Below, in pieces: positions 5,675 to 23,842 of a stretch of DNA of 64,000 nt (position 1 is the stretch's first letter; each line of letters begins with the position of its first letter). The stretch comes from Myxococcales bacterium (GTDB taxonomy: Bacteria; Myxococcota; UBA4151), in NCBI GenBank assembly GCA_002722845.1, contig PBND01000040.1, positions 1 to 64,000 on the forward strand, given 5' to 3'. Below the pieces are notes generated by a model. It had not been told where the DNA came from. It did no database searches and saw only the letters and a program-made list of their open reading frames with translations. The translations under genes and the position numbers were made by a program.

Positions 5675-5718
5675 GAATACGTGTGCGTCGCCGCCGCTGA
5701 TCATCGGGCACCGTGCGG

Positions 5719-8241
5719 ATGAATAGAGCCCTTTCATGGTTGGCCCACCATGGTTGGAACCACCCTTGGCGAGTGCTTTCCATCTTGCTGCTGCCGACGC
5801 TGGTGCTTGGCTTCTTCGCGAGTCAACTTCGACTCGATGGTAGCCTGCTCGGTGCGGTCAACGACAATGACCCCCAGGTGGTTCGGCTCAAGCAGCTCAA
5901 AAAGCAATTCCCCGCCGGTGGCACCATGGCCTTGTTGGTGGAGGGGGGCACAGAAGCCCAGCGGCGGGCCGGTGTTCGACAGGCAGCGGAACAACTCGTC
6001 GAGCAGCCATCGGTACTTCAAGCAGCCTACCGCCTGGACGCGTTCATCGCCTATGGTCACGGCATTTTACTGATCAAAGACGAGACCTTCGAGCGATTGA
6101 AGCGCCGTTTGGAGGGATTGGCCTTCGTCCTCGAAGTCGCCCAGCATCCGGAGGCCCAGGAGACCCTCTCCACCCCCCAGGAGTCCAGTCCTGCGAAGGC
6201 GGAAGAGATGGTGGATCTGGCCGAAATGATTGCGGGTGATCTACCGTCGGGCTTGGTGGCCGAGGGGCTCTCGGACTTGCCCCTTCGAAGCGGCTGGTTC
6301 GCCAGTCCCGACGGACGCATCTACGTGCTGGACCTCCGGACCACTCTGGACCCCATCGCCGATGATGTTGGGGGCGCAGCCTTCGTACCCATCGACCAAG
6401 CTTTAGCGTCTGTCCGGCAAGCTTACCCCGACTTGACCTTTACCTTCGCTGGCATGGCTGCAACGGCCCACGAAGACCAGGCGAATGTCCTCAGTCAATT
6501 ATTACCTCTGTCCTCGATTTCGCTGCTCTTGGTTCTCTTTCTATTGAGTCGATTGAACCGAAGTATTTGGTCGGTTGGGCTCACCGGGTGCGCCCTCGCA
6601 GTCGCCTTGGTTTGGACCTTCGGTTTGGTGCACCTCGTCATCGGCTATGCCTCGGTGATGGCTGCCGGCTTTGCGATTCTCCTCTTCGGTTTGGGGATCG
6701 ACCACGCTGCCCATCTCCTGTTGCGCTTCGACCGGGAGCGCCGGGCAGGCTGCGATGGCGCCGAGGCAACGAGGAGGATGCTCGTTCAGACGGGCCGAGG
6801 GGTCCTTGTGGGTGGACTGACCACCGCGTTGGCCTTCGGCTTGATGGCCTTCATCGATTTTAAAGCGGCGGTCCATCTCGGGATCACCGCCTGTATGGGG
6901 ATGGTCGCGACGCTCATCACCGTGATGACGGTGTTGCCGGCCGGATTGCGTTTGACCGTGGCTAAACGCCAGGTACCGCCGGAGGCTGCGCCGGTGGCGG
7001 TCCTCGAAAAGATCACCCAGGCCAGCCTCGCCTCGCCGAAGTGGGTGATGGGCCTGAGTGCTTTCATGCTGCTCCTGGGCCTTGCAGCCTTTCCCCGCTT
7101 CGAGTTGGAGACTGATCTCGAAGCGGTGATGACCCAAGATCTGCCCTCGATGATCGCATTGCGCCGTTTGAAAGACCAGGCGGGGATCACCACCGAAGCG
7201 GTGCTTTCTGCGGCACCGGACCTCGCAACGGCGCGGGCCCGAGCTGAGCGCCTTGAAGCGTTGCCTCAGGTGGCCCGAGTCGAGGGTGTTCACCGACTGC
7301 TGCCCCCGAACCTCAAGGAGCGGGTGGCTCGAAACCAGGCGATGCTGCCCATCGTAGAGGCCTTTGAAGACCTGCGCATCGAGGGGGTAACGTCGGCCCA
7401 GTTTCGTCAGGTGACGGCGGCCTTGGAGCAGCGGATTGAAGCCTGGCCCGAAACGGGCGAGTGGCGGGCAGTGAAGGCTCGGGCCCGGGGCGTCCTGGAG
7501 CGGATTCGTGCCCAGGACCCCAAAGCGCTTCAAGCCCACTTGGTCGCTGCCCAAAATGCCCTCAAGCAGGGGCTGACCGATCCGGTGCTTCAACCGGAGG
7601 ACCTACCGGAGCCCTGGCGGTCTCGTTATCTGGGCGACGGCGAGTACCTGAGCCTTATCTTTCCCAAGGACGAACGTCTTGCCGCCGATTCGCTCAGCGA
7701 GTTCCGGGCTGCTGTGACCGCGGTCGACCCCCAGGCCGCTGGAGGCCTCTTCGTTGTCGACTACTTGCTGGTGGGGGGCGTGGAGCGAATGAAGGGCAGC
7801 CTGGGGCTCATCTTGCTCGTCTTGTTCGTGGTCCTCTTCTTGGATTTGCGGCGCCCCAAACAGGTCGCGGTCGCCTTGGTTCCTCTGCTTTGTGGTTCCA
7901 TTATCGGCCTCGGCGCCCTTCTTTGGCTGGGCCGGCCGATCACTTTGGTGATGTTGAGCGCATTCCCCCTCATCTTTGGCATTGGGATCGATGATGGCGT
8001 GCATCTGCTGCATGGGTGGAGAGAGGGGGGCGACATCAGCCGTTCGGTCAGTCAAATTGGCGCTGGCATCCTCTTTACATCCCTGTCGACAGCCCTCTCT
8101 TTTGGCGTGTTGCTTGGCCTTGACCACAACGGCTTCGAAGGGCTCGCCCTTCTCGTGATCATCGGGGTTGGAACCTGCTTTGTCGCTTCGATGACGCTGT
8201 TGCCCGTGTTGGCGAGTCGTTTTCTGGAGCCGCCGACGTGA
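5719..8241 (+). CDS. MMPL/HpnN-like RND-superfamily lipid exporter
   Basis: An 840-residue inner-membrane transporter with the internal duplication of the RND superfamily: each half has one transmembrane helix, a large periplasmic loop and a block of five helices. The two halves carry the related motifs FGLGIDHAAHLLLRF and FGIGIDDGVHLLHGW, where the Asp probably takes part in proton relay. The size and plan resemble HpnN/MMPL transporters, which move hopanoids, mycolate-type lipids and polyketide lipids, rather than tripartite drug pumps. The ATG at 5719 is preferred over a GTG six bases earlier because a GGG lies at suitable distance. It is followed after 46 bases by five coupled lipid-type biosynthetic genes, so it is the probable exporter of their product. 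Confidence 0.8.
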   Translation: MNRALSWLAHHGWNHPWRVLSILLLPTLVLGFFASQLRLDGSLLGAVNDNDPQVVRLKQLKKQFPAGGTMALLVEGGTEAQRRAGVRQAAEQLVEQPSVLQAAYRLDAFIAYGHGILLIKDETFERLKRRLEGLAFVLEVAQHPEAQETLSTPQESSPAKAEEMVDLAEMIAGDLPSGLVAEGLSDLPLRSGWFASPDGRIYVLDLRTTLDPIADDVGGAAFVPIDQALASVRQAYPDLTFTFAGMAATAHEDQANVLSQLLPLSSISLLLVLFLLSRLNRSIWSVGLTGCALAVALVWTFGLVHLVIGYASVMAAGFAILLFGLGIDHAAHLLLRFDRERRAGCDGAEATRRMLVQTGRGVLVGGLTTALAFGLMAFIDFKAAVHLGITACMGMVATLITVMTVLPAGLRLTVAKRQVPPEAAPVAVLEKITQASLASPKWVMGLSAFMLLLGLAAFPRFELETDLEAVMTQDLPSMIALRRLKDQAGITTEAVLSAAPDLATARARAERLEALPQVARVEGVHRLLPPNLKERVARNQAMLPIVEAFEDLRIEGVTSAQFRQVTAALEQRIEAWPETGEWRAVKARARGVLERIRAQDPKALQAHLVAAQNALKQGLTDPVLQPEDLPEPWRSRYLGDGEYLSLIFPKDERLAADSLSEFRAAVTAVDPQAAGGLFVVDYLLVGGVERMKGSLGLILLVLFVVLFLDLRRPKQVAVALVPLLCGSIIGLGALLWLGRPITLVMLSAFPLIFGIGIDDGVHLLHGWREGGDISRSVSQIGAGILFTSLSTALSFGVLLGLDHNGFEGLALLVIIGVGTCFVASMTLLPVLASRFLEPPT

Positions 8242-8287
8242 AACTTGGACCTCGCTCACAGCCGGGCCCGCACGGGGGTGCCCTTTA

Positions 8288-9079
8288 ATGCTGTGGGTCT
8301 GCCTGTGGTTCCTGTGGTTTGCCCTGGTGGGTGGGGCGGTCTCGATTACCTATCATCGGATGCTCGCCCACCGAGCGTTCCGGGCCCGCCCGTGGTTTCG
8401 CTATACACTGGTGGTCCTGGCCGCAACGGCAGGCCCGCCCATTCAATGGGCCAGCAATCACCGTCGACATCATCGGTATGTGGACCAGGAGGGTGATCCC
8501 CATTCACCGATCCAGGATGGTTTTTGGTGGGCCCACTGCGGGTGGTATTTGGGCCGGCGTGAGCCGTGGCTGTGCCTCCTCTTCGCCTTATCCGGGCCCT
8601 TCAGGCTGATCATCGATCCCTTTCTCTGGCCGTCCCTTGAGGCCATGGAACGGGTCCCACAGGATCTCGGCAAGGATCGGGGCCTGGTCTTCCTGTCCCA
8701 GCACTCGGTGCACCGCGGTATGATTTTGCTCCACCTTCTTCCTGTGGTCGGCTTTTGTTGGGCCTTGGGGTGGCCGGGGCTGTTGATTGCGTGGGCCAGC
8801 GCCGTCTTTTTCTACAATCTGGGCGATGGGGTGAACTCGTTCGGTCATCTCTATGGCGAGCGTGACCCCGCCAACGCCGGTGAGGCGCGAGACACCTGGT
8901 GGTTGGCCCTTTTGACTTTCGGCGAAGGTTGGCACGGTTTCCACCACGCCCATCCCCGGTCGCCCCGGATGGGACCCTTCGACTTCGGTTGGTGGGCGAT
9001 TTGGGTCTTTGATCGAATCGGCTTAATTGAAGCACGACGCCCCGAGCAGGGGCAGCAGGGGGAGCGACAGCATGCCTGA
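8288..9079 (+). CDS. Membrane fatty acid desaturase (acyl-CoA/acyl-lipid type)
   Basis: A 263-residue integral membrane desaturase. The three histidine boxes of the stearoyl-CoA-desaturase-like family are visible: HRMLAH (about residue 23), HRRHHRYVD (about 58) and HGFHHAHP (about 218), which bind the diiron centre that inserts a double bond into an acyl chain. Hydrophobic segments surround them. It has the short bacterial form without a fused cytochrome b5 or ferredoxin domain. It is the first of five genes whose stops and starts overlap, and the next gene starts inside its last codons. In this setting it may modify the acyl substrate or product of the adjacent ketosynthase rather than bulk phospholipid; this is inference. 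Confidence 0.85.
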   Translation: MLWVCLWFLWFALVGGAVSITYHRMLAHRAFRARPWFRYTLVVLAATAGPPIQWASNHRRHHRYVDQEGDPHSPIQDGFWWAHCGWYLGRREPWLCLLFALSGPFRLIIDPFLWPSLEAMERVPQDLGKDRGLVFLSQHSVHRGMILLHLLPVVGFCWALGWPGLLIAWASAVFFYNLGDGVNSFGHLYGERDPANAGEARDTWWLALLTFGEGWHGFHHAHPRSPRMGPFDFGWWAIWVFDRIGLIEARRPEQGQQGERQHA

Positions 9080-9653
9080 ACCTACCGAAAGCCAATTGGT
9101 TCTCTACCTCATCCTCTATGTGATCCTGCCCATCTGGACCATCGCCGGCACGGTGGACTGGTGGTGTCACCGAAGGACGAAGATCGAGGAGACCAGTGGC
9201 CTGAAAGAGAGCATCATCCACAGCATCATGGGCATTCAGGTGGGGCTCCCCATCCTCGCCTGCCTCATCTTCGAGGTGAACGTCCTCTTGATGCTCTTTT
9301 GTTTCTTCATCCTCATCACCCACGAGTACGTGGCCCATCAGGATATTGTTTGGGCGACGCCGAGACGGGAAATCTCCCACCTCGAAATCCATGCCCACAG
9401 TTATCTCTCGACCGTTCCCTTCTACCTCATCGGTCTGATCGTGGTTCGGCGCTGGGATACCTTTTTGAAGATGATCACCTTCGACTGGTCCGGCGAGATG
9501 AGTCTTGTCCTTCGCAGCGAACCCATTGGAGGCACGCCCTACTATTTGCCCTATTACTTAACCTTTGCTCTTTGCGTGGGCGTGGTTCCCTACGTTGAAG
9601 AGAACATTCGCTGCTGGAATTATCAGCGGCGCCAGCGAAAGGCTCAGGCATGA
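9072..9653 (+). CDS. His-rich multi-pass membrane protein, unknown function
   Basis: A 193-residue membrane protein starting at the ATG at 9072, preceded by GGGGGAG and overlapping the desaturase stop. There are about four or five hydrophobic segments (for example residues 9-25, 50-85, 115-135 and 160-178). Several histidines lie in patterns that recall a membrane diiron centre: CHRR (about 29), IIHS (about 46), HEYVAHQD (about 90-97) and SHLEIHAHS (about 109-117). I do not recognise the family. The histidine arrangement and its place between a desaturase and a ketosynthase suggest an oxidoreductase-like enzyme acting on a lipid, but it could equally be a structural membrane partner. The next gene overlaps it in an ATGA arrangement. 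Confidence 0.65.
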   Translation: MPEPTESQLVLYLILYVILPIWTIAGTVDWWCHRRTKIEETSGLKESIIHSIMGIQVGLPILACLIFEVNVLLMLFCFFILITHEYVAHQDIVWATPRREISHLEIHAHSYLSTVPFYLIGLIVVRRWDTFLKMITFDWSGEMSLVLRSEPIGGTPYYLPYYLTFALCVGVVPYVEENIRCWNYQRRQRKAQA

Positions 9654-10786
9654 GCGTCTATATCACCCAGACGGGGTCATACCTCCCCGGTGATCCGGTG
9701 GACAATGAACGGATCGAGACGGTCCTGGGATTTGTCCATGACAAGCCGAGCAAGCTCAAACGGCGGATCCTCAAATCCAACGGCATTCAGACCCGTCATT
9801 ATGCCATCGACGCGGCCCAGGAGACGCAGGTTCAAAATGAAGAGATGGCGGTGGCTGCCGGTCAATTGGCCTTGGAGCGATCTGGTCTCGAGCCCCAGGA
9901 CATTGGTTTGCTGAGCGTGGCGACGAGTCAGGGGGACTATGTTTTACCGGGGTTCGGCAGTCAGGTGCAGGCCGGTCTCGAGATTCCCCGGGTGGAGCTG
10001 GTCACCACCCATGGCATTTGCTCCTGTGCGATGATGGCTCTGAAGGCTGCGGTGAACGGGGTGAAAGTTGGTGACCAACAACAGGCGCTGGTCGTCTCCT
10101 CTGAATTGTCGAGTCGCTTACTCAAAAAGCAGCGCTACGAGGCGGCGATCGGCTCGATCGGCGCACAGAGAGGCTTGGATTTTAATGCAGAATTCCTGCG
10201 TTGGATGCTTTCGGATGGGGCCGGGGCCATCGTTCTTTCCGATCGGCCCCGGGCCAATCAACTGAGTTTTCGAGTCGACTGGATTCGATCCTTCTCCCAT
10301 GCGGACAGTTTTCCCGTTTGTATGAGCGTTGGTCACTCCGGCAAGGGGGAAGATGCCCCGAAGTCCTGGCAGGATTACAGCACCTATGGCGAGGCCGAGG
10401 CCGATGGTGCCCTGCTGATTCGCCAGGATGTCCGTCTGCTGGAAAATATCGTCAAGCTGGGGGTTGATGGCTTTCTGGGCCTCATCGAAGAAGGCACGGT
10501 GGTCGTCGACGAGATCGATCACTTCCTCTGCCATTACAGTTCCCATTATTTCCGTGGAAAAATCGTTGAGATGCTGACCAAAGCCGGGGCGATGGTGCCC
10601 GAAGAGCGCTGGTTCACGAATCTCTATGACAAGGGCAATACGGGCTGTGCGGCCATGTTCATTATGATCGATGAGTTTTTCCAGTCAGGTCGGGCGAAGC
10701 CTGGCGAGACCATCTTTTGCCATGTGCCCGAATCCGGGCGCTTTAATACGGTCTACATGCAACTGACCTGTGTGGAGGGCACATGA
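9650..10786 (+). CDS. StlD/DarB-like beta-ketoacyl synthase III
   Basis: A 378-residue thiolase-fold ketosynthase of the KAS III type. The N-terminal pattern (LKRRILKSNGIQTRHYAID, residues 36-54) resembles the StlD/DarB branch, whose members condense two acyl thioesters and cyclise them to cyclohexanediones or dialkylresorcinols. The probable catalytic Cys is C126 in GICSCAMMA, with a histidine in DHFLCHYSSH and an asparagine in KGNTGCA completing the triad. The usual DarA aromatase and dedicated ACP genes are not beside it; instead a diiron oxidase follows, coupled by ATGA. It is the central enzyme of the operon. OleA-type head-to-head condensation is the main alternative. Substrates cannot be read from sequence. 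Confidence 0.75.
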   Translation: MSVYITQTGSYLPGDPVDNERIETVLGFVHDKPSKLKRRILKSNGIQTRHYAIDAAQETQVQNEEMAVAAGQLALERSGLEPQDIGLLSVATSQGDYVLPGFGSQVQAGLEIPRVELVTTHGICSCAMMALKAAVNGVKVGDQQQALVVSSELSSRLLKKQRYEAAIGSIGAQRGLDFNAEFLRWMLSDGAGAIVLSDRPRANQLSFRVDWIRSFSHADSFPVCMSVGHSGKGEDAPKSWQDYSTYGEAEADGALLIRQDVRLLENIVKLGVDGFLGLIEEGTVVVDEIDHFLCHYSSHYFRGKIVEMLTKAGAMVPEERWFTNLYDKGNTGCAAMFIMIDEFFQSGRAKPGETIFCHVPESGRFNTVYMQLTCVEGT

Positions 10787-11487
10787 CCCAAGACGACCCG
10801 ATCGGTGGGCAGGAGGCCCTTCAACCCCTGGCCCAAGAAGCCTTGAGAGGCTTGTTGCGCACTTGGATGGAGTTTGAACGCAAGCTCGCAAAGGTGCCGG
10901 TGCTACGGCGCTTAGATACGGGCACCTTTTCCCAGTCGGATTATCAGCGTCTCCTTTTCAACCTGCGGGCCCAGGTGGTGGAAGGGGCCCGCTGGATCAC
11001 CCGAGCAGCCTCCAGTTTTGACCGGGACCATGCCGAGGTTCGTAGCATCGTGATCAGTCATGCCAAAGATGAGCATCGGGATTATGAGATCCTAGAGCAG
11101 GATTATGTCCGTGCCGGTGGCGAACTCGAGGCGATCCAGGCTGGCCAACGCAACATCGGCAGCGAAGCCTTGGCGGCCTTTCTCATGCACCGAGCCAGCC
11201 AACCCAACCCGGTGGATATGCTCGGGGCGATGTTCATCATCGAGGGCTTGGGCGAAAAGATGGCAGCCAGCTGGGCGGAACGTATCTGTGAATTGACCGG
11301 CCTACCTGAAGAGGCGACCACCTTTCTCCGTTACCACGGCGAAAATGACGAGAACCATATGGAGCGTTTCTACGTCATGCTGGACACGGTGGCGACCAGC
11401 CCGGAGCGGGTCGCAGCCATACAGAAAACAGCCAAGGTGGTGGCCCGCCTCTACGCATTACAACTGGAGGAGTTGGACAATGTCTGA
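10783..11487 (+). CDS. Haem-oxygenase-like diiron oxidase (HDO; TenA/UndA/CADD-like)
   Basis: A 234-residue all-helical protein with the metal ligands of the haem-oxygenase-like diiron oxidase group: E67 in VVEGAR, E97 and H98 in KDEHRDYE, E154 in IIEGLGEK, and an H-x3-D-x2-H motif (H185, D189, H192). Known members decarboxylate fatty acids to alkenes (UndA), N-oxygenate amines (SznF) or cleave C-C bonds (BesC, CADD); all use O2. Here it overlaps the ketosynthase stop by ATGA, so its substrate is probably the ketosynthase product or an acyl precursor. The family assignment is good from the ligand spacing; the reaction is not determined. Confidence 0.75.
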   Translation: MTQDDPIGGQEALQPLAQEALRGLLRTWMEFERKLAKVPVLRRLDTGTFSQSDYQRLLFNLRAQVVEGARWITRAASSFDRDHAEVRSIVISHAKDEHRDYEILEQDYVRAGGELEAIQAGQRNIGSEALAAFLMHRASQPNPVDMLGAMFIIEGLGEKMAASWAERICELTGLPEEATTFLRYHGENDENHMERFYVMLDTVATSPERVAAIQKTAKVVARLYALQLEELDNV

Positions 11488-12325
11488 GCGGAGTGCAGCC
11501 ACTCTTTATGAGGCTTTGCTCGCCGATGACAGCCATCCCATCGATCCGGTGGCCAAAAAATATTGGCTTCAGGACCTCCAGAACCCACTGCGCTTGAGTC
11601 TGCTGCCGCTGATGCGCATTGGCTGTACGCTGACGCTGCACACGGTCTACTTTTTGAAGCGATTGATCCCGATCCAGTTCCGGGCCCATCGGTTCCTGCA
11701 GTGGTTGATCTGCTTCTTCATGAAATACTTCGTTCGACCGGAGGCAAACATCCTCATCATTCGTCACTTTGCTGTCGAGTCGAACATCCTTAACCTGCTG
11801 ATCCGCAACTCGAAGGGCGGCGAGAACGTCCCCCTGGTGGACCTTTACCCCAGCATGATCCGGGACTTGATGGACGCCACATTTGTCGATCACGACCAAG
11901 GGGTTTTGATGACGTTTCGCGATCTGGGCAGTTGCCGAGATGAGGCCTGGCCGATGGCCGAAGCGTCCCTGGACTGGAGCGGATGGCGTGACTTTGAGGT
12001 CCAGTACGATACGTTCCACAAAAAATGGACTCAGTTTCTCGATTTTGAAACGGCTCATGAACTCTTCAAGACGACCTTTTGCCTCCTCTTGACCGCCCGA
12101 GAATATGAGGCGGCGATCAACTCCTTCCAATTCGATGAGTCGATGGCGCTGCGGATTGGCCGAATGATCGACGAGCCGAATCTGGTGGAGATGACCGCGA
12201 ACAAGTTCCCGCTGGTCTTGGTGAGCACCCGCAACTTAAGTCGGCGGTTTGTGCTTCATGGCATCTTTACGGAGCACCTACATGCTCATCTACAGGAGAT
12301 TAGAGTTCGCCATCACGGAAGGTAA
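11480..12325 (+). CDS. Conserved-looking protein of unknown function, last gene of the lipid operon
   Basis: The ATG at 11480 overlaps the stop of the diiron oxidase gene and gives 281 residues; a longer upstream frame is only open in the shadow of that gene. Residues about 40-65 and 75-90 are hydrophobic and amphipathic (LRLSLLPLMRIGCTLTLH, FLQWLICFFMKYF), suggesting membrane association. Several histidines and acidic residues follow (IIRHFAVESN, DATFVDHDQG). I do not recognise a family. Strict coupling to the ketosynthase and oxidase genes implies a role in the same pathway, perhaps as a transfer or assembly protein. After it comes a 130-base non-coding gap with a palindrome. Confidence 0.65.
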   Translation: MSERSAATLYEALLADDSHPIDPVAKKYWLQDLQNPLRLSLLPLMRIGCTLTLHTVYFLKRLIPIQFRAHRFLQWLICFFMKYFVRPEANILIIRHFAVESNILNLLIRNSKGGENVPLVDLYPSMIRDLMDATFVDHDQGVLMTFRDLGSCRDEAWPMAEASLDWSGWRDFEVQYDTFHKKWTQFLDFETAHELFKTTFCLLLTAREYEAAINSFQFDESMALRIGRMIDEPNLVEMTANKFPLVLVSTRNLSRRFVLHGIFTEHLHAHLQEIRVRHHGR

Positions 12326-12375: not shown

Positions 12376-12454
12376 GTTGAGGGAGGTCCTCCTCGGGGCC
12401 TTGCAGTGTGAGGGATTCCTTCAGTACAGTTGGATGTCCAACCGGAGTAAAACC

Positions 12455-12991
12455 ATGCCTGAAGAACCGATGGAGCCCTTAAGAAATGATCCCAACAGCA
12501 CCTGCCATGACGAGACAGTCACCTGGCTTGCGAGCGGTGATCAACCCAATCCACTCACAACGATGGAGCGGGCCCGCCGGGAGCGACAATTAAGAAGATC
12601 CAGCGCATCGCCCCGGCCCGAACTCCTCGAGCAGGTTCGCCATGGGTTTCTCAGCTTTAATCCCCACGATGACGGGGAGATGGAGGCTGATGTCTTCCGG
12701 ATGGATGTCGCTGAGATCCGCGACCGACTCCCCGAATCGGTCCTCTCGTCTTTCGATCATTACCGGCATTTTGTGGAGGGGCATCGCTGGGGCTTTGTTC
12801 GCCTCTTGGCCCGCTACATGAACGAGGACCGGGTGCTGGTCGTGGCTGTTCGGGCCACCCATGGCGGCTATCTAGAAATCTTCGATGCTCACGGGATGCC
12901 CCTGCTTAGTGGCCGCAAGTTCCAAGATGAAGCCATTTGCTGGGATGGGGAGTTTGGTGCCTGTCGGGAGTCCGTCATTTACGACGACTGA
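12455..12991 (+). CDS. Hypothetical cytoplasmic protein
   Basis: The ATG at 12455 follows a GGAG (12444-12447) at good distance and gives 178 residues; upstream ATG codons in the same frame (12434) lack a clear ribosome binding site. No signal peptide and no membrane segment. The C-terminal two thirds alternate predicted strands and helices (RVLVVAVRATHGGYLEIFDAHGMPL), which suggests a small alpha/beta fold. I do not recognise it. It stands alone between the lipid operon and the convergent sensor kinase gene, with which it shares 13 bases at the 3' ends. Confidence 0.6.
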   Translation: MPEEPMEPLRNDPNSTCHDETVTWLASGDQPNPLTTMERARRERQLRRSSASPRPELLEQVRHGFLSFNPHDDGEMEADVFRMDVAEIRDRLPESVLSSFDHYRHFVEGHRWGFVRLLARYMNEDRVLVVAVRATHGGYLEIFDAHGMPLLSGRKFQDEAICWDGEFGACRESVIYDD

Positions 12992-15125: not shown

Positions 15126-15533
15126 ATGGATTTAAGTGAACTTGAAGACAACATGGGGTGGCTGGAGTGGGAAGACCGCTATCGCTACCTCATCGAATTG
15201 GGTGAAGCCTTGGAGCCCATCGACGAGGTGGCTCGCTGTGAGGCCAACCGCGTTCAGGGCTGCATGAGTCAGGTCTGGCTGCAATTGGAGCCATCAGAAG
15301 GTCGCCTTCATTTTCGTGGCGACAGCGATTCAGCCATCGTTAAAGGGCTCGTCGCTGTCTTGCGAATTGCCTATTCGGGGCAATCTCCCCAGCAGATCCT
15401 CGATTTTGATCTGAAAGGGGCCTTTAGCCGCATGGGGCTCGATGAACACCTGAGCCCTAATCGTCGCAATGGGTTCTATTCGATGGTGGGTCTGATCCGA
15501 GGTCGGGCCCAGGGCATGTTACAACGAGTCTGA
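15126..15533 (+). CDS. sufE: SufE-family sulfur acceptor
   Basis: A 135-residue protein of normal SufE length. The catalytic Cys is in GCMSQVWL (about C51), which takes a persulfide from the desulfurase SufS and passes it to the Fe-S scaffold. The conserved core (AIVKGLVAVL...YSGQSP) and the C-terminal NRRNGFYSMV helix are present. No suf operon is adjacent, so it is an orphan gene, as often seen. It faces the GH3-type gene and overlaps its 3' end by 15 bases. Confidence 0.9.
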   Translation: MDLSELEDNMGWLEWEDRYRYLIELGEALEPIDEVARCEANRVQGCMSQVWLQLEPSEGRLHFRGDSDSAIVKGLVAVLRIAYSGQSPQQILDFDLKGAFSRMGLDEHLSPNRRNGFYSMVGLIRGRAQGMLQRV

Positions 15534-17168
15534 GCTTGTTTCAGGCCGGGTGGTTGAGCGCCCCTTCTTAAAGGCATGGTCCCAAATCGGACGCAGGTCC
15601 AAATAGTCCTGCTCTTCTCGCTCGGGCACGGAAAGCCCTTCTCGGCTCAAGGTCCGTTGATAGGTCTCCCAGCCATTTTTAACTTCGATGAGCTCGAGTT
15701 CGGCCAGCAGTCCATGTTCTCGAGCCGAGCGATACCCATCGATTTCCTGCAACTGGCGCTCCAGGCAGAACTGGAAGTCCGCTAAGTCTCCCTCATCGCC
15801 CCGTCGCTCCAGAAAGATGCGATACCGGGCTTTGGGGCCGGAGACCGGCGTGACCAAAAAGAACCGGGGTTTTAGGTTCGTCTCCCAGTGGGCCACCTCG
15901 ACGGCGCGACGGATTGCTGCTTCACCGACTTTCTCGCCAGCCAGATTGGCGGCCATATCCAGCCGGCCGAGAAACTCAATGCAAGGGGTTGCGCCGTGAA
16001 AGCCGACGCAGCGCACCGCATCTCGGAGGTGGTAGCGGGTGAGACCACCGGCGGTGGTCACGATGGGCGAATAGGTGCCACCGAGTCGTAGTTCATCCAC
16101 TAAGCAGGGCCGGGCGTCCGGGGCTTCAAGGTCTTGGAACTCTAGGAAATGACTCGTCACGGCCAGGACACTGCCGGTGCCGCTCCACAGTGGAAAGCTG
16201 ACAATACCCTCGGTCGCAATCAGTCCTTTTGCTTGAATTCGAGTGTTGGGAAACCAGGCCTTCAGGTTCGGTAGCAAGGCAGCCGATGGCCCCTCGCCAT
16301 AACAGGACAGCAGTTGGAGTCGTGGCCATAGGGCGCTTCCCACGAGATCCCCGGCCTCATCGAGCCCAGCCATGATCGCTGCCCGGCGGCTGGGCTTGAG
16401 GGTGTCGAGAAGGGGTTCGAGATTCTGCGCCAGTTCTTCCATCAGCGCGACCAAAAAGGTGGGATGCCAGATGGAGATAAAGCCCAAGTCCTCGCAGGCC
16501 AGAAGTTCCTGGATGGTCTGTTGGCGCCAGGCGCTTGGGTCGGCGATCCGACGAACTCGGCTGCGGACAGCGCGGGTGCGACGCAGGGCAAAACGGGCCA
16601 AGGGGCTAAAGAAGTCGGTATCGTCGTCCATACCGATAGGGATGCCGCCCGGTGTGCTCTCTCGCTGATGGGGCAGGGGCGCCATGCCCCAGTAACTACG
16701 GGTTCCCACCAGATCGGGACAACCGATGGACAACTCTCGAAGCCAGGGAGCGGTCGCCGCGGCAAACTCGCTAAAGAGACCGTCGGTATAAGGGATCAGT
16801 TTGATCTCTCCAGCGGCACCTCGGCTCCGCTCCATGAGTCGAACCGGCGCCCGGGTCAGGACACGTCGCTCCCCATTGGCGATTCGGTTGATCCATTCAG
16901 AAAAATCGTCATAGCTGCGGACCGGAACCCGATCCTGAAAAGCGGCAAACGAATCGATGCCATCCAGTTGGTGAGTTTTGGCAAAGGCTGTGTCACGACG
17001 GCCGGCCAGCAGAGAGCGCAAACGAGCCTCTTGGGCTTTGCGCGGTTTGTTGGCAGCCCGTTGAAATTGCCGCCATCGGCCACGCAGGCTCATCACGTAA
17101 GCATGGTGAATACCTTTAACGACCGGTTGAAACACGGCTCGACTCCCACGATCGATCGGGCCGAGCAT
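15519..17168 (-). CDS. GH3-family acyl-acid-amido synthetase-like protein
   Basis: A 549-residue protein of the GH3 (auxin-responsive) branch of the adenylate-forming superfamily. Members activate a carboxylic acid with ATP and join it to an amino acid or amine. The nucleotide motif region is ERSRGAAGEIKLIPYT (about 113-128), a variant of the usual SSGTT...K.IP pattern. A second motif is LGGTYSPIVTTAGGLTRYHLRD, given here as its two parts GTYSPIVTTAGG and LTRYHLRD. The C-terminal lid domain runs from about 410. Full length for the family. Bacterial members are poorly characterised and the acyl substrate is unknown. It is last in a minus-strand series after the two lectin-like lipoproteins, 43 bases after the second. 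Confidence 0.8.
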   Translation of the reverse strand: MLGPIDRGSRAVFQPVVKGIHHAYVMSLRGRWRQFQRAANKPRKAQEARLRSLLAGRRDTAFAKTHQLDGIDSFAAFQDRVPVRSYDDFSEWINRIANGERRVLTRAPVRLMERSRGAAGEIKLIPYTDGLFSEFAAATAPWLRELSIGCPDLVGTRSYWGMAPLPHQRESTPGGIPIGMDDDTDFFSPLARFALRRTRAVRSRVRRIADPSAWRQQTIQELLACEDLGFISIWHPTFLVALMEELAQNLEPLLDTLKPSRRAAIMAGLDEAGDLVGSALWPRLQLLSCYGEGPSAALLPNLKAWFPNTRIQAKGLIATEGIVSFPLWSGTGSVLAVTSHFLEFQDLEAPDARPCLVDELRLGGTYSPIVTTAGGLTRYHLRDAVRCVGFHGATPCIEFLGRLDMAANLAGEKVGEAAIRRAVEVAHWETNLKPRFFLVTPVSGPKARYRIFLERRGDEGDLADFQFCLERQLQEIDGYRSAREHGLLAELELIEVKNGWETYQRTLSREGLSVPEREEQDYLDLRPIWDHAFKKGRSTTRPETSSDSL

Positions 17169-17211: not shown

Positions 17212-19044
17212 TTATTGTGCGTCCTCGCAGATGATATGAAAGCGTTCGCTGCAACGCTTATCGTGTAAGACGCGGCCCGAGTTTTCCCGCAGACGGAAGC
17301 AGCGGCGACCGTTTTCGTCAGCGTAATAAAGAATGTCATCGCCAGCCCAATTGTTGATCCAAGTGGGCGGTGGGTTTCTCCCGACCCCATTTTCATCGAT
17401 GAGCCCGGTCCAAAAGTCCCAGCCCCAATCATCGTTCCTGCCGATCAGTTGCCGGATCGCATCCAGATCAGCATTGCTCTCAAACGAGATGAGGTCGGCG
17501 CCGGCATGGATCTCATCGCAGCGTTCCCTGGCCCCATCCCAATTGAACCGCTCGGTACAGTAAAAAGAGAGCCGGTTTCGTCCCTCGATCTCGACGCAGC
17601 GATCCGGTAGATCAAGCCCTTCAGATCGACAGTCTCGGTCACAGCCGTCCCCGTCGACCCGATTGCCGTCATCACAGGCCTCGACCCCGGCCTGCACGTG
17701 GCCATCGCCACAGCGAGCCTCTTGGCAGTCGTTCAAACAGGCATCCGCCTGGTTCTGGTTGCCGTCGTCACATTGCTCAACGCCGACATATTGTTGTCCG
17801 TCGCCACAACGAGCGAGATTACAATTGTTCAAGCAGCCATCATGATCGGCTTGATTGCCGTCGTCGCAGGCCTCCGCTTGAGGATTGCGGAAGCCATCTC
17901 CGCATCGATTGGCGACACAGTTGTTCAGGCAGGCGTCTTCTTGCGCTTGATTGCCATCGTCACAGGCCTCTCGGCCTTGCCAGGTGTGCCCATCACCACA
18001 GCGGGCCAACATGCAGTTGCTCAGGCAGCTGTCTCGGTCGTTTCGGTTGCCATCGTCGCAGGCCTCCTGTCCCACTTGAACAAAGCCGTCGCCGCAAACA
18101 GCGATCTGGCATTCGGGGGTGCAGGCATCTGTCCCGTCGTCGTTACCGTCGTCGCAGGCTTCCACCTCACCGTTGACGATTCCGTCGCCGCAAACGTTGC
18201 GAGTGCAGTCGTTGAGACAAGCATCCTCCTGAGTCTCGTTGCCGTCGTCACAGGCTTCGACATTTCGCTGCACAAAGCCATCACCACATGTTGCCCGCCG
18301 ACAGTCATTCAGGCAGTCATCGCCATTGTCTTGATTGCCGTCATCGCAGGGCTCGATGCCTTCCTGGACCTGCCCATCCCCACAGCCAGCGGAGGTGCAG
18401 TTGTTGAGACAGAGGTCGGTCTCAATCTCGTTGCCGTCATCACAAAGTTCGACGCCTTCATGGACAATACCGTCGCCGCAGCGAGCCAGCAGACAGTTCG
18501 TTAAGCAGTCATCGTTCATGACCGTATTGCCGTCATCGCATTCCTCGTGATCGGGGCTGCCGACCTCCAGATCGATTCGAGTGACACCATCCCCACAGAT
18601 TGCGCTGCGACAGTTGTTGAGGCAGTCATCGCCGTCGGTCTCGTTGCCGTCGTCACATTCCTCCGCACCATCGATACCCGCTTCGAGGTCGACTCGGGCG
18701 ACGCCGTCGCCGCATCGAGCGATCTTGCATGAGGTCGTACAGGCGTCATCGTTCTGCTCGTTGCCGTCGTCGCAGTCTTCGTCTGCCTTCTTTAAGCCAT
18801 CGCCACAGCGGGGTGGCTGGCAGCGCGTCGTGCATTCATCCTCGTTGTCTTGGTTGCCGTCATCGCACAGCTCATCCAGTTGAATGATTCCATCACCACA
18901 ACTCGCGTCGACACAGAGCCCCGAACGACACTGTTGGTTGGTGGCACAGGCCGGGCCATCATCGCACGGTTTGGCTCCATGGTAGGCGGCCGTGGGTGGG
19001 CAGCCAACGAGCAAGAGGAGCATCGGGGTTGCGAAACGCAGCAT
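17212..19044 (-). CDS. Lipoprotein with 13 Cys-rich (DUF4215-type) repeats and a C-type-lectin-like domain
   Basis: A 610-residue surface lipoprotein. The signal is MLRFATPMLLLLVGC, lipobox LVGC. After a short Cys-containing spacer come 13 repeats of about 32 residues (residues 49 to about 480), each of the form CGDG-x(5-14)-E-x-CDDGN-x5-D-x-C-x3-C. The C-terminal 125 residues form a C-type-lectin-like domain: cysteine pattern plus FWTGLIDENG, WAGDD and an FHIICEDA end, as in sugar- or protein-binding CTLDs. The Asp-rich repeats probably bind calcium and make a stiff stalk that displays the lectin head outside the cell. A close paralogue lies just upstream in the same direction, 72 bases away. 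Confidence 0.85.
   Translation of the reverse strand: MLRFATPMLLLLVGCPPTAAYHGAKPCDDGPACATNQQCRSGLCVDASCGDGIIQLDELCDDGNQDNEDECTTRCQPPRCGDGLKKADEDCDDGNEQNDDACTTSCKIARCGDGVARVDLEAGIDGAEECDDGNETDGDDCLNNCRSAICGDGVTRIDLEVGSPDHEECDDGNTVMNDDCLTNCLLARCGDGIVHEGVELCDDGNEIETDLCLNNCTSAGCGDGQVQEGIEPCDDGNQDNGDDCLNDCRRATCGDGFVQRNVEACDDGNETQEDACLNDCTRNVCGDGIVNGEVEACDDGNDDGTDACTPECQIAVCGDGFVQVGQEACDDGNRNDRDSCLSNCMLARCGDGHTWQGREACDDGNQAQEDACLNNCVANRCGDGFRNPQAEACDDGNQADHDGCLNNCNLARCGDGQQYVGVEQCDDGNQNQADACLNDCQEARCGDGHVQAGVEACDDGNRVDGDGCDRDCRSEGLDLPDRCVEIEGRNRLSFYCTERFNWDGARERCDEIHAGADLISFESNADLDAIRQLIGRNDDWGWDFWTGLIDENGVGRNPPPTWINNWAGDDILYYADENGRRCFRLRENSGRVLHDKRCSERFHIICEDAQ
17610..18900 (-). repeat. 13-unit coding tandem repeat, period about 96 bases
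   Basis: Coding repeat array of the lectin-like lipoprotein. The DNA period is about 96 bases (32 codons), with two longer units (3 and 4) that carry a seven-residue insertion. The units are diverged from each other in DNA, so this is an old array, not a recent slippage product. Confidence 0.85.
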
Positions 19045-19116
19045 GGCCGTGGGCTAACACATCTGAGCGGTTTGGTCAGCGTCAGAGGTCACAGCCGGAA
19101 CCCGTAGCCCATGATC

Positions 19117-20616
19117 TCAGCGCTCACAGAAGAAGGCCTTTGATTGTTCGCAGATCGCGTCGTTCCACCGACTCCCAGCGCCGGTCCAAAGGCAAGCACA
19201 ATCCTCTCTTTGCCGCCAGTTGTCTGGCTGCCCTGCGCCCCAGTTCTCATAGTCGGAATCTCGGCCCACCCATTCCCAGTCGCGTTCCTCGCCGCGATCG
19301 TTGTAGCCAATCCAGATCTCTCCGAGCTGCCAAACATAGCCGGCGAGGACGTCGTGGTCCGCTTGGTTATCGACGGTGACGAGATGGCCGCCCCAGTCCT
19401 GGCAAAAATCTTCTGCTGCGGGCCAGGACAACCGTCTACTGGAGCAGAGTAGGGTTTCCCTGCCCCGGTTTTCGAGGACCGAACAACCGTCTGGCGCCCC
19501 TTCCCGCTGGCAGTCTGCATCACAGCCATCGCCCGGGTCGCGATTGCCGTCATCGCAGGCTTCTTGGCCCTGCTGAACATGGCCATCGCCGCAGCGAGCC
19601 GGGGTGCAGTCGTTTAGGCAAGCATCCCCGTTGCTTTGGTTGCCGTCGTCGCATCCTTCCACGCCCACTTGGAGAAAACCATCTTGGCAACGAGCTGGTT
19701 GGCAGCGCGTCGTGCAGTCATCCTGGGGGTTGTCGTTGCCATCGTCGCAGGCCTCAGCCTCTGGATTCACGAGGCCGTCACCGCAGACGTTGAGTTCACA
19801 ATCGTTGCGGCAGGCGTCTGCGTCGCTGTCGTTGCCATCATCACAGGCCTCCTGACCGGAGTGCAGAACACCGTCACCGCAGCGGGCGAGAGCACAGTCG
19901 TTTAGGCAGTCGTCTTGGTTGTTTTGGTTGCCGTCATCGCAATCTTCGAGGCCCGCCTGGACGATCCCATCGCCACAGCCGGCCCACGTGCAGTCATCCA
20001 GGCATTGGTCGGTGGGGTCATCATTGCCATCGTCGCATTCTTCCTCGTCGGCCCAGTGGATGCCATCACCGCATCGGGCTGCGGTGCAATCGTTGAGACA
20101 GGCATCTTCTTGAACCGTGTTTCCATCGTCACAGGCCTCGACGCTGATCCACTGAATGCCATCGCCGCACTTGGCCGTCTGACAGGTGTTGAGGCAGGCA
20201 TCCGTGTCCTCGTTGTTGCCGTCGTCGCAGGCCTCCGCACCGTCCTGATCCAAGGGGATGTCGAGGCGCAGAATTCCGTCGCCACAAACCGCAAGCTGGC
20301 AGTTTGCGGTGCAGTCATCGCTGTCGATTTCATTACCGTCGTCGCAGGCCTCAGTGAGACCAACGAGGCCGTCGCCACAGCGGGGCGCTTGGCACAGGGT
20401 TGTGCAGTCATCATCGTTGTCCGAGTTGCCATCGTCACAACCTTCGTCCAGCTGGACGATTCCATCACCGCATTGGGCATCGACACACAGGCCTTCATTG
20501 CACTGTTGGTTCGGACCACAGTCGCTGGCTGCCTCGCAGGGCATGGCACCATAATAGACCGCCTCCGGTGGGCAGCCGATGAAAGCGAGGCAGATGATGG
20601 CAAAAGCAATTCGCAT
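19117..20616 (-). CDS. Lipoprotein with 10 Cys-rich repeats and a C-type-lectin-like domain
   Basis: A 499-residue paralogue of the next gene downstream. Signal MRIAFAIICLAFIGC with lipobox FIGC, then the same Cys-containing spacer (NQQCNEGLCVDAQ), ten repeats of CGDG...CDDGN...C...C type (the ninth starts CQDG), and a C-terminal C-type-lectin-like domain (about 377-499). This lectin domain is more canonical than that of its neighbour: IWIGYNDRGEE, the WVG element, ENWGAGQPDNW and SRWNDAICE, the last resembling the calcium-binding WND motif. It may therefore truly bind sugar. Its start lies only 10 bases after the stop of a broken threonine synthase gene, so transcription may come from that gene's promoter. 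Confidence 0.85.
   Translation of the reverse strand: MRIAFAIICLAFIGCPPEAVYYGAMPCEAASDCGPNQQCNEGLCVDAQCGDGIVQLDEGCDDGNSDNDDDCTTLCQAPRCGDGLVGLTEACDDGNEIDSDDCTANCQLAVCGDGILRLDIPLDQDGAEACDDGNNEDTDACLNTCQTAKCGDGIQWISVEACDDGNTVQEDACLNDCTAARCGDGIHWADEEECDDGNDDPTDQCLDDCTWAGCGDGIVQAGLEDCDDGNQNNQDDCLNDCALARCGDGVLHSGQEACDDGNDSDADACRNDCELNVCGDGLVNPEAEACDDGNDNPQDDCTTRCQPARCQDGFLQVGVEGCDDGNQSNGDACLNDCTPARCGDGHVQQGQEACDDGNRDPGDGCDADCQREGAPDGCSVLENRGRETLLCSSRRLSWPAAEDFCQDWGGHLVTVDNQADHDVLAGYVWQLGEIWIGYNDRGEERDWEWVGRDSDYENWGAGQPDNWRQREDCACLWTGAGSRWNDAICEQSKAFFCER
19500..20472 (-). repeat. 10-unit coding tandem repeat, period about 96 bases
   Basis: Coding array of the second lectin-like lipoprotein, same unit type and period as the array at 17610-18900. 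Unit three carries the same kind of seven-residue insertion as units three and four of the paralogue, which supports descent from a common duplicated gene. Confidence 0.85.
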
Positions 20617-22276: not shown

Positions 22277-23842
22277 TTGAAGCAAAAGCACTTCATTGAC
22301 CTCTCAAAAGGGGTCACGCCGCTGGTCGTCCTGGCCTGCATGTTTGTCTACAATGCTTGGGACAATCCGACAGCGTGGGCCTATCTGGCGACCCATGGGA
22401 CCTACGGGGTTCTTTGGGTTCTCAAGTCGCAGATTTTTCCTGACAAGAGTTGGGAGGCGCCCTGCGGAATCGGTTACGGTCTCGTTATTTTGGGGGGGCT
22501 TGCGCTCTACTGGGGAACCCCATGGATGATCTGCGCGTGGCAGATCGAAGCGCCACTTTGGTTCCTTAGCCTCTGTGTTGCCATCTTCGGCATCGGCGTG
22601 TTCCTGCATTTTGCCGCCGACATGCAAAAAGACGCCACGCTGAAGCTGAAGAGGGGTCTCATCACCGACGGTTTGTTCGCACGCACCCGAAACCCAAATT
22701 ACCTGGGTGAGTTGCTGATTTACGGCAGCTTCTCGGCCTTGGCCATGCACTGGTACCCCTTTGTCGTGTTGGCCGTGTTCATGGCGGTGATTTGGGTGCC
22801 CAATATGTTGAAGAAGGATAAGAGTATCTCGCGGCATGAGGGCTGGGCGGCCTACAAGGCGAGAACCGGTCTGTTGTTCCCGAAGATTTCCGGAGGAACC
22901 TACATGGCTTCGCTCGGTATCTTTTTGATGGGTGTCGGATTGGTAGACGTCCTCGGAAGTTGGAATGGCTTTGATCTTTGGCGCGGCGTGATCGGTTGGC
23001 GCAGTATGCCGGACGCGCTTTGGCAGTTTTCGGGCTACGTTGAGTTGGGAATCGGCTATATGCTGCTGCGGATGGCCGGCGGCGGCGATGAAGCGGAGGA
23101 GGCTCCGGTTGAGTCTGAGGGGGCCGCCAATCGGGCCGAGACGCTGGTGATGCTGCTTGGCACCCTCTTGGTCGCCTGTCCTTCACAGGTCACCCCCCCC
23201 GCCGAGGTCCCCGCGGCCGATGCCTCTACGCCATGCGCTGATGGGGCCTGTCCCGATGGCGGCCAACTGGACGCGGGAGCCCAAGTCGCGGACGCAGGTC
23301 AGTCCGTGGACACCACCCCTTGCGGTGAGGGGGGAACCTATTGCCCGGAGGACCAGTATTGCCATGTGGGTTGGAGTACCTGTGGCGAAGAGCCGGAGTT
23401 GGGAACGTGCCGCTTTCGAGGGGAGTTTTGCGATGAGCACCCAGACCCAGTCTGTGGTTGCGACGGATTGACCTACACCAATCAGTGCCAGGCCCGGCTC
23501 GCCGGGGTGAACCTGAACCGGGGCGGCCCCTGTGAAGCCCGTCTGTGCGAGGTCGGTGACCGGGGCAACACGTGTCCTGATCGGATGTACTGCAGGGTGC
23601 CCGATTATCAATGCGGTCGCTCTGGCTATTGCGCTGAGGTACCGACGGAATGTCACCCTGATGAGGGCTTGGGGCCCGTCTGTGGGTGCAACGGCGTTGG
23701 TTATCGCACGCTATGCGAACTGAGGATGACCGGCACCGGCTTTCGGCAACTCGGTGACTGCGAGGAGCTTCGCTGTGATTCCGATGCCGACTGTGCGGAG
23801 GGCCAAACCTGCGAGCGAGGTCGCTGTGTGGGCGAGGAGTGA
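22277..23842 (+). CDS. ICMT-like membrane methyltransferase fused to a Kazal-type secreted region
   Basis: A single 521-codon frame from a TTG at 22277. Residues 1-275 form a multi-pass membrane protein resembling isoprenylcysteine/phospholipid methyltransferases and DUF1295-like proteins. The signature is GLFARTRNPNYLGELLIYG (about 136-154), which binds S-adenosylmethionine and the lipid-proximal substrate, followed by YKARTGLLFPK. From about residue 290 the sequence becomes a lipoprotein-like segment (LVMLLGTLLVACPSQ), an Asp/Ala linker and two Kazal-like modules (VCGCDGLTYTNQC and VCGCNGVGYRTLC). This could be a true fusion or two proteins, the second translated from an internal start near 23150 (ATG), with the lipobox LLVAC. 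The hydrophobic segment would place the Kazal part outside. Confidence 0.65.
   Translation: MKQKHFIDLSKGVTPLVVLACMFVYNAWDNPTAWAYLATHGTYGVLWVLKSQIFPDKSWEAPCGIGYGLVILGGLALYWGTPWMICAWQIEAPLWFLSLCVAIFGIGVFLHFAADMQKDATLKLKRGLITDGLFARTRNPNYLGELLIYGSFSALAMHWYPFVVLAVFMAVIWVPNMLKKDKSISRHEGWAAYKARTGLLFPKISGGTYMASLGIFLMGVGLVDVLGSWNGFDLWRGVIGWRSMPDALWQFSGYVELGIGYMLLRMAGGGDEAEEAPVESEGAANRAETLVMLLGTLLVACPSQVTPPAEVPAADASTPCADGACPDGGQLDAGAQVADAGQSVDTTPCGEGGTYCPEDQYCHVGWSTCGEEPELGTCRFRGEFCDEHPDPVCGCDGLTYTNQCQARLAGVNLNRGGPCEARLCEVGDRGNTCPDRMYCRVPDYQCGRSGYCAEVPTECHPDEGLGPVCGCNGVGYRTLCELRMTGTGFRQLGDCEELRCDSDADCAEGQTCERGRCVGEE

Follow-up and report, generated by a model that had tools for sequence, protein, structure and literature searches.

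Gene content of the locus

The locus described here lies in a 64,000-nucleotide stretch (the window) at positions 1 to 64,000 of contig PBND01000040.1, from a Myxococcales bacterium whose genome assembly (G000) is 2.68 Mb and 70% complete. Gene calls in the window place five overlapping genes on the + strand at 8288–12325, encoding in order a membrane fatty-acid desaturase, a His-rich membrane protein (HIS), a ketosynthase (KS), a predicted heme-oxygenase-like dimetal oxidase (HDO) and a DUF6999 protein, with an MMPL gene upstream. The overlaps at the four successive junctions, from the desaturase through DUF6999, are 8, 4, 4 and 8 bp, and the ATG of the desaturase is found 46 bp past the MMPL stop. 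An earlier note on this DNA, made from the sequence alone, had described just such an end-to-start run behind an MMPL gene, and the gene calls agree. A promoter and terminator scan gave fewer matches than shuffled sequence did and was uninformative.

The upstream gene (+ strand, from a GTG at 5713 or an ATG at 5719 to 8241) encodes an MMPL/RND-type membrane protein of 842 aa (PF03176, 78.7 bits). The desaturase (8288–9079) matches FA_desaturase (PF00487, 67.8 bits) and is a candidate accessory tailoring enzyme, and HIS (9072–9653) is a 193-aa protein of an unnamed family. The KS (9650–10786) matches PF08541/PF08545 and resembles StlD/DarB, with a C124/H295/N330 triad, and is followed by HDO (10783–11487; Haem_oxygenas_2, PF14518, 43 bits). 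The last gene (11480–12325) had been listed in the earlier note as an unknown protein; the gene is there as described, but it does have a family, DUF6999 (PF22523, 300 bits). A 204-aa gene with no family (12377–12991) lies 3′ of DUF6999, and beyond it, on the opposite strand, are a sensor histidine kinase and then, from a reading of its translation, an apparent response regulator.

The KS-HDO-DUF6999 core

A scan of GTDB at one genome per species, with a DUF6999 alignment as the query, confirmed 477 relatives, of which 80 were kept with their flanks. The 80 loci are distinct and come from six phyla: Myxococcota, Beta- and Gammaproteobacteria, Bacillota (Paenibacillus and Cohnella), Acidobacteriota (a Bryobacter metagenome-assembled genome, MAG), a planctomycete MAG and a Chlorobiales MAG. 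They are rich in Achromobacter and Variovorax, and because these two genera dominate, counts over the 80 loci are not independent. Using tblastn, KS, HDO and DUF6999 were found in that order and on the same strand in 75 of the 80. Given this recurrence the neighbourhood is more than chance; KS, HDO and DUF6999 form a widespread conserved core, and the window carries an unfused subtype of a larger system. The system is larger than the earlier note suggested, which had missed its wide spread and the place of DUF6999 beside KS and HDO.

Three of the five loci without the full core (L062, L065 and L115) end at a contig edge. The other two, from Variovorax (L118 and L127), have FA_hydroxylase and DUF6999 with no KS-HDO nearby, and a 638-aa KS-HDO frame is found elsewhere in each genome. 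In 73 of the 80 loci KS and HDO are a single open reading frame (ORF), a count that depends on the codon-trained gene caller used; they are separate genes in the window and in L038, L039, L149, L216, L217 and L068. Among 195 Myxococcota genomes, HDO (E ≤ 1e-20) was found in 19 and DUF6999 in 22, and all 19 HDO genomes have DUF6999, leaving three with DUF6999 alone and 173 with neither (Fisher p = 1.4e-23, uncorrected for kinship). The three are G084 and G137, both fragments, and G187, which is discussed below. In Paenibacillus, unlike in the betaproteobacteria, clustering of neighbouring genes gave no family common to most loci, and the core seems to stand alone there. One further locus looks decayed: at 1299–2349 of L232 (G264:C95), a C-terminal KS fragment with an internal stop is followed by DUF6999 in two pieces.

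The oxidase was modelled with AlphaFold2 (AF2; pLDDT 93.2) and compared with known structures. In sequence, UndA, CADD and SznF are too distant for phmmer to detect. The best match was PDB entry 3dde (Z 26.0, 1.9 Å over 217 residues), followed by CtCADD (Z 24.4–25.2, 1.8–1.9 Å over 207–209 residues), HrmI (Z 21.7), FlcD (Z 20.1) and UndA (Z about 20). The model thus predicts a seven-helix heme-oxygenase fold, as the earlier note's assignment to the HDO type implied. PDB entry 3bjd, deposited as a “putative 3-oxoacyl-(acyl-carrier-protein) synthase”, matches the model at Z 20.2, like FlcD, and its name looks wrong.

Most HDO members are described in an excerpt of PMC13108848 as having three His and three carboxylate ligands from three core helices. 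Here H93, E97, D100, E128, E154, H185, D189 and H192 are invariant in 91/91 homologues, and in 28/28 of a second alignment; judged from the alignment, all of these but E128 are potential ligands. Of the full ligand set that had been claimed for this protein, E97, E154, H185, D189 and H192 hold as invariant residues, whereas E67 (E/D/Q) and H98 (H/Q) vary and H93 and D100 had been missed. The putative second-half ligands E154, H185, D189 and H192 are shared with CADD, UndA, HrmI, FlcD and 3dde, from which the present HDO differs in its first-half motif and in its usual fusion to a ketosynthase.

The closest PDB sequence to the window KS is StlD (5gk0, 253 bits), and residues C124, H295 and N330, which align with StlD C146, H322 and N357, are kept in 90/90 KS sequences. 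Identity to DarB-like proteins is 39–45%, and at 53 alignment columns conservation reaches 90% or more within the DarB-like/StlD rows and also within the HDO-type rows. The match to the NCBIfam StlD/DarB family NF005293 (391 bits) is under its cut-off of 450, which 0/18 KS-HDO genomes exceeded; the cut-off of NF053539 does not discriminate, as 0/369 genomes, DarB ones included, reach 550. In a 63-row tree, a 23-row clade (support 100/100) unites StlD with 20 DarB-like proteins and with two KSs from Bacteroidales plasmids, and FabH rows are separate (100/100, branch 4.49), so a housekeeping FabH was rejected. Rooting the tree on FabH makes the HDO-type KSs a paraphyletic group with respect to the DarB clade; support for this is modest (80/38, 94/96 and 90/89), and for this reason we do not argue for a direction of descent. 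The relationship to StlD/DarB proposed in the earlier note therefore holds by family, PDB and tree, with the KS as a relative rather than a member of the clade. A StlD/DarB-like KS outside both groups was also seen on a plasmid of Streptomyces sp. NBC_00008 (L156, 5703–13027), together with a DarA-like gene (32%), two acyl carrier proteins (ACPs), an FAD monooxygenase, a P450, FabF and SCP2.

The dialkylresorcinol systems (DarA-DarB, with or without DarC, and StlD) differ from the present core in their neighbours. A DarA homologue adjoins 19 of 20 DarB genes, the remaining one being at a contig end, and no HDO or DUF6999 was found in any of the 8 wide DarB neighbourhoods examined. Conversely, the same DarA query was negative genome-wide in 23/23 KS-HDO genomes, the 70% complete window genome included, and positive in 5/5 DarB controls, in agreement with the absence of the aromatase that the earlier note had pointed out. 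No small gene for a dedicated ACP (DarC) was found between the operon genes (60 aa minimum), the only part of the genome searched for one.

DUF6999 is as constant as the KS, and it is therefore likely an enzyme of the pathway. Residues R95, H96, N110, H138, D139, D188, D219, E220, H260 and E265 are invariant in 37 DUF6999 sequences. The AF2 model is all-helical (pLDDT 81), and Foldseek matched it to nothing at E ≤ 0.001; the top VIA Z was 5.0, to G-protein-coupled receptors (GPCRs), which tells nothing about a protein made of helices, and the missing match is no evidence of a new fold. A profile search over PDB sequences found no match, and no other Pfam family pointed to a function.

Accessory and neighbouring genes

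The genes around the core were examined in a set of 106 loci; some contigs occur in it twice, taken from different collections, and counts over the set are therefore not independent. Desaturases, of one kind or the other, are present in 60/106 loci and FA_hydroxylase (PF04116) in 59/106. Desaturases 38–43% identical to that of the window adjoin the core in L028, L029, L032, L035, L037 and L040, and HIS adjoins it in 6/106 loci. By this distribution the desaturase and HIS are accessory to the core, a point that the earlier note had missed, and the accessories seen most often are membrane desaturase and hydroxylase genes.

HIS has no Pfam or NCBIfam family and no PDB sequence match. Residues D29, H33, E39, H50, H84, D91, E105, H107, H109 and E177 are invariant in 13 homologues, a pattern of His and acidic residues that would suit a membrane metal enzyme; Pfam matches among these homologues are weak and scattered, the best being Hao_C (0.00056) in 6/13. 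HIS and FA_hydroxylase were never found together among the 106 loci, and this mutual exclusion hints that HIS replaces the hydroxylase. The HIS-KS-HDO-DUF6999 order is found in Pseudoalteromonas sp. THAF3 (identity to the window HIS 53%, KS 60% and HDO 61%), where the four genes are annotated as “hypothetical / beta-ketoacyl-ACP synthase III / iron-containing redox enzyme / hypothetical”, and in the gammaproteobacterial genome G514 (52, 64, 60 and 44%). The window is therefore no one-off, and its arrangement is a distinct subtype. HIS-family proteins at 34–37% identity also occur in Myxococcaceae (L142–L148), with no KS, HDO or DUF6999 within the stretches examined, six in number.

The MMPL gene behaves differently. 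Like the HpnN/MMPL lipid transporters, the upstream protein is MMPL/RND-like, but it scores only 270 bits against the cut-off of 752 for HpnN (TIGR03480) and 164 against 1100 for NF052374, and the HpnN part of the label HpnN/MMPL-like in the earlier note was rejected. A homologue (E ≤ 1e-6) was found in 1/106 loci, the window itself, with a weak match (E 5e-6) to a convergent gene in L041. A role as product exporter was dropped for lack of conservation, and the gene is probably outside the conserved pathway.

Elsewhere in the window, a GH3-family protein (PF03321, 106 bits) is encoded at 15519–17168; this family is best known from plant acyl-amido synthetases. Two neighbouring proteins at 17212–20616 have many Cys-rich repeats of the CGDG/ACDDGN type and, from reading the translation, a C-terminal part that looks lectin-like. 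At 22277–23842 one protein has Kazal-type inhibitor domains joined to a DUF1295/PEMT-like membrane domain, and a Glutamyl/glutaminyl-tRNA synthetase at 33173–35422 bears a C-terminal GatB/YqeY domain.

A proposed pathway and its alternatives

From its distribution, the KS-HDO-DUF6999 set is almost certainly a conserved pathway, and there is a good probability that HDO acts on the KS product. Since most loci encode KS and HDO as a single polypeptide, condensation followed by an O2-dependent step is well motivated. Of the sequence of condensation, O2-dependent step, desaturation and export predicted in the earlier note, these first two steps are retained, while desaturation is accessory and export by the MMPL protein is not supported. 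We tentatively favour, at somewhat less than an even chance, a widespread lipid pathway in which a dione condensation by KS is followed by oxidation by HDO. Going by its family, the KS would join two acyl thioesters to a 2,5-dialkyl-cyclohexane-1,3-dione, as StlD and DarB do (4-carboxylated for DarB), and we lean slightly towards such a dione-type condensation. Excerpts of the literature describe DarB as making 4-carboxy-2,5-dialkylcyclohexane-1,3-diones and StlD a related dione (PMC5515871, citing Fuchs 2013 and Mori 2016), and place these diones as intermediates on the dialkylresorcinol route (PMC4414361).

HDO would then oxidize the KS product with O2. By analogy with UndA, an HDO fatty-acid decarboxylase (PMC13108848), the most economical chemistry we infer would be an oxidative decarboxylation of the 4-carboxy-dione that introduces a ring double bond. 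Tautomerization of this double bond would give a dialkylresorcinol-type (or further oxidized) lipid, with HDO in place of the flavin-type aromatase DarA, though this particular decarboxylation and aromatization is less likely than not. DUF6999 would act on the same intermediate or product, and the desaturase, together with HIS in the window subtype or FA_hydroxylase in others, may tailor the alkyl chains within the membrane. In its fullest form the proposal describes an acyl-condensing lipid pathway of a class of its own, present in at least six phyla, where a KS-fused diiron oxidase with a permuted ligand motif converts the nascent beta-keto acid, by one O2-dependent oxidative decarboxylation, to a lipid that is aromatic or oxidized in some other way and DUF6999 completes the product; this too is less likely than not.

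Several observations weigh against this proposal. None of the HDO- or DUF6999-linked KSs, that of the window included, falls within the StlD/DarB clade, and the groups are split by one alignment position, Phe in the HDO type (F102 in the window) and His in DarB/StlD, so the KS substrates may differ. The first half of the HDO motif is H93-x3-E97-x2-D100, and the aligned residues in 3dde, the closest PDB relative, are H, E and H. The first-helix ligands are E81 and H88 in CADD and E101 and H104 in UndA, a Glu and then a His. The alignment suggests a permuted motif, in which D100 seems to occupy the usual place of the His, preceded by E97 and, two turns back, by H93, and UndA-like reactivity is therefore not assured. 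Two genomes also break the association. G187, which is 98% complete, has KS and DUF6999 (L041, G187:C361, 9389–13124) and no HDO genome-wide at E ≤ 0.001; the KS has a divergent P450 gene (PF00067) as its neighbour, and DUF6999 faces a convergent MMPL gene. The P450 is compatible with an interchangeable O2-dependent step, though this is a single case. The gammaproteobacterial G286 has DUF6999 (310 bits; L231, G286:C54:52000-70000, 7889–9912) without KS or HDO, which is probably a remnant, as the adjoining ORF reads like an IS3-type transposase. Finally, the chemistry itself is only predicted, from sequence, families and the HDO model.

The same KS and motif differences lend weight to another reading, in which the KS gives a linear or other cyclic product (a beta-diketone, alpha-pyrone or ketone) that HDO desaturates, hydroxylates or cleaves to a new non-resorcinol lipid. 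HDOs are known for N-oxygenation, C–C cleavage, desaturation and alkyne formation (excerpt of PMC13108848), and pyrone-forming KS-like enzymes such as PpyS exist (excerpt of PMC4414361). On the other side, many KS residues are common to StlD/DarB and not to FabH, which suggests a shared pocket architecture, and we regard the reading as a real, if not quite probable, possibility. OleA-type head-to-head condensation was considered and set aside without an OleA-specific test.

It could also be that the locus is an ordinary dialkylresorcinol cluster with its aromatase encoded elsewhere in the genome. The NCBIfam name of the KS points this way despite the sub-threshold score, and antiSMASH labels a region “resorcinol” in Achromobacter mucicolens, with DarB as the core gene (PMC9045304), and in Variovorax paradoxus (PMC9872631). 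However, each of the genomes sampled from Achromobacter and Variovorax (G199 and G205) has a single StlD/DarB-like KS, which is HDO-linked, with other matches at FabH strength and no DarA. Such “resorcinol” calls in these genera therefore probably include the KS-HDO system, as judged from G199 and G205. With DarA missing from every KS-HDO genome searched, though a very divergent aromatase might escape, and with the KS outside the StlD/DarB clade, this reading is disfavoured and quite improbable. More improbable still is that HDO is an iron- or ROS (reactive oxygen species)-handling or otherwise protective domain fused to the KS and non-catalytic on its product. In dried Acinetobacter baumannii, oxidative stress is limited by the HDO-like protein DtpC (excerpt of PMC13232832), but the frequency of the KS fusion, the invariance of the putative ligands and the DUF6999 and lipid-modifying enzymes alongside point to biosynthesis.

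The dione-forming pathway that we favour shares its KS homology, triad and conserved columns with the dialkylresorcinol systems, and differs from them in its fused or adjacent HDO and in DUF6999 and the membrane desaturase, hydroxylase or HIS genes. Literature searches, with subscription literature largely outside their scope, found no paper recognizable as describing the KS-HDO-DUF6999 gene set or a pathway with the same gene order, none naming DUF6999, and none pairing “iron-containing redox enzyme” with a ketosynthase. DUF6999 is carried by hundreds of species, including Achromobacter, Variovorax, Paenibacillus and Myxococcus. The natural KS-HDO fusion links a predicted O2-activating diiron-type domain to acyl condensation, so that the substrate of this HDO becomes guessable and testable, and the DUF6999 and HIS families gain a concrete biochemical context.

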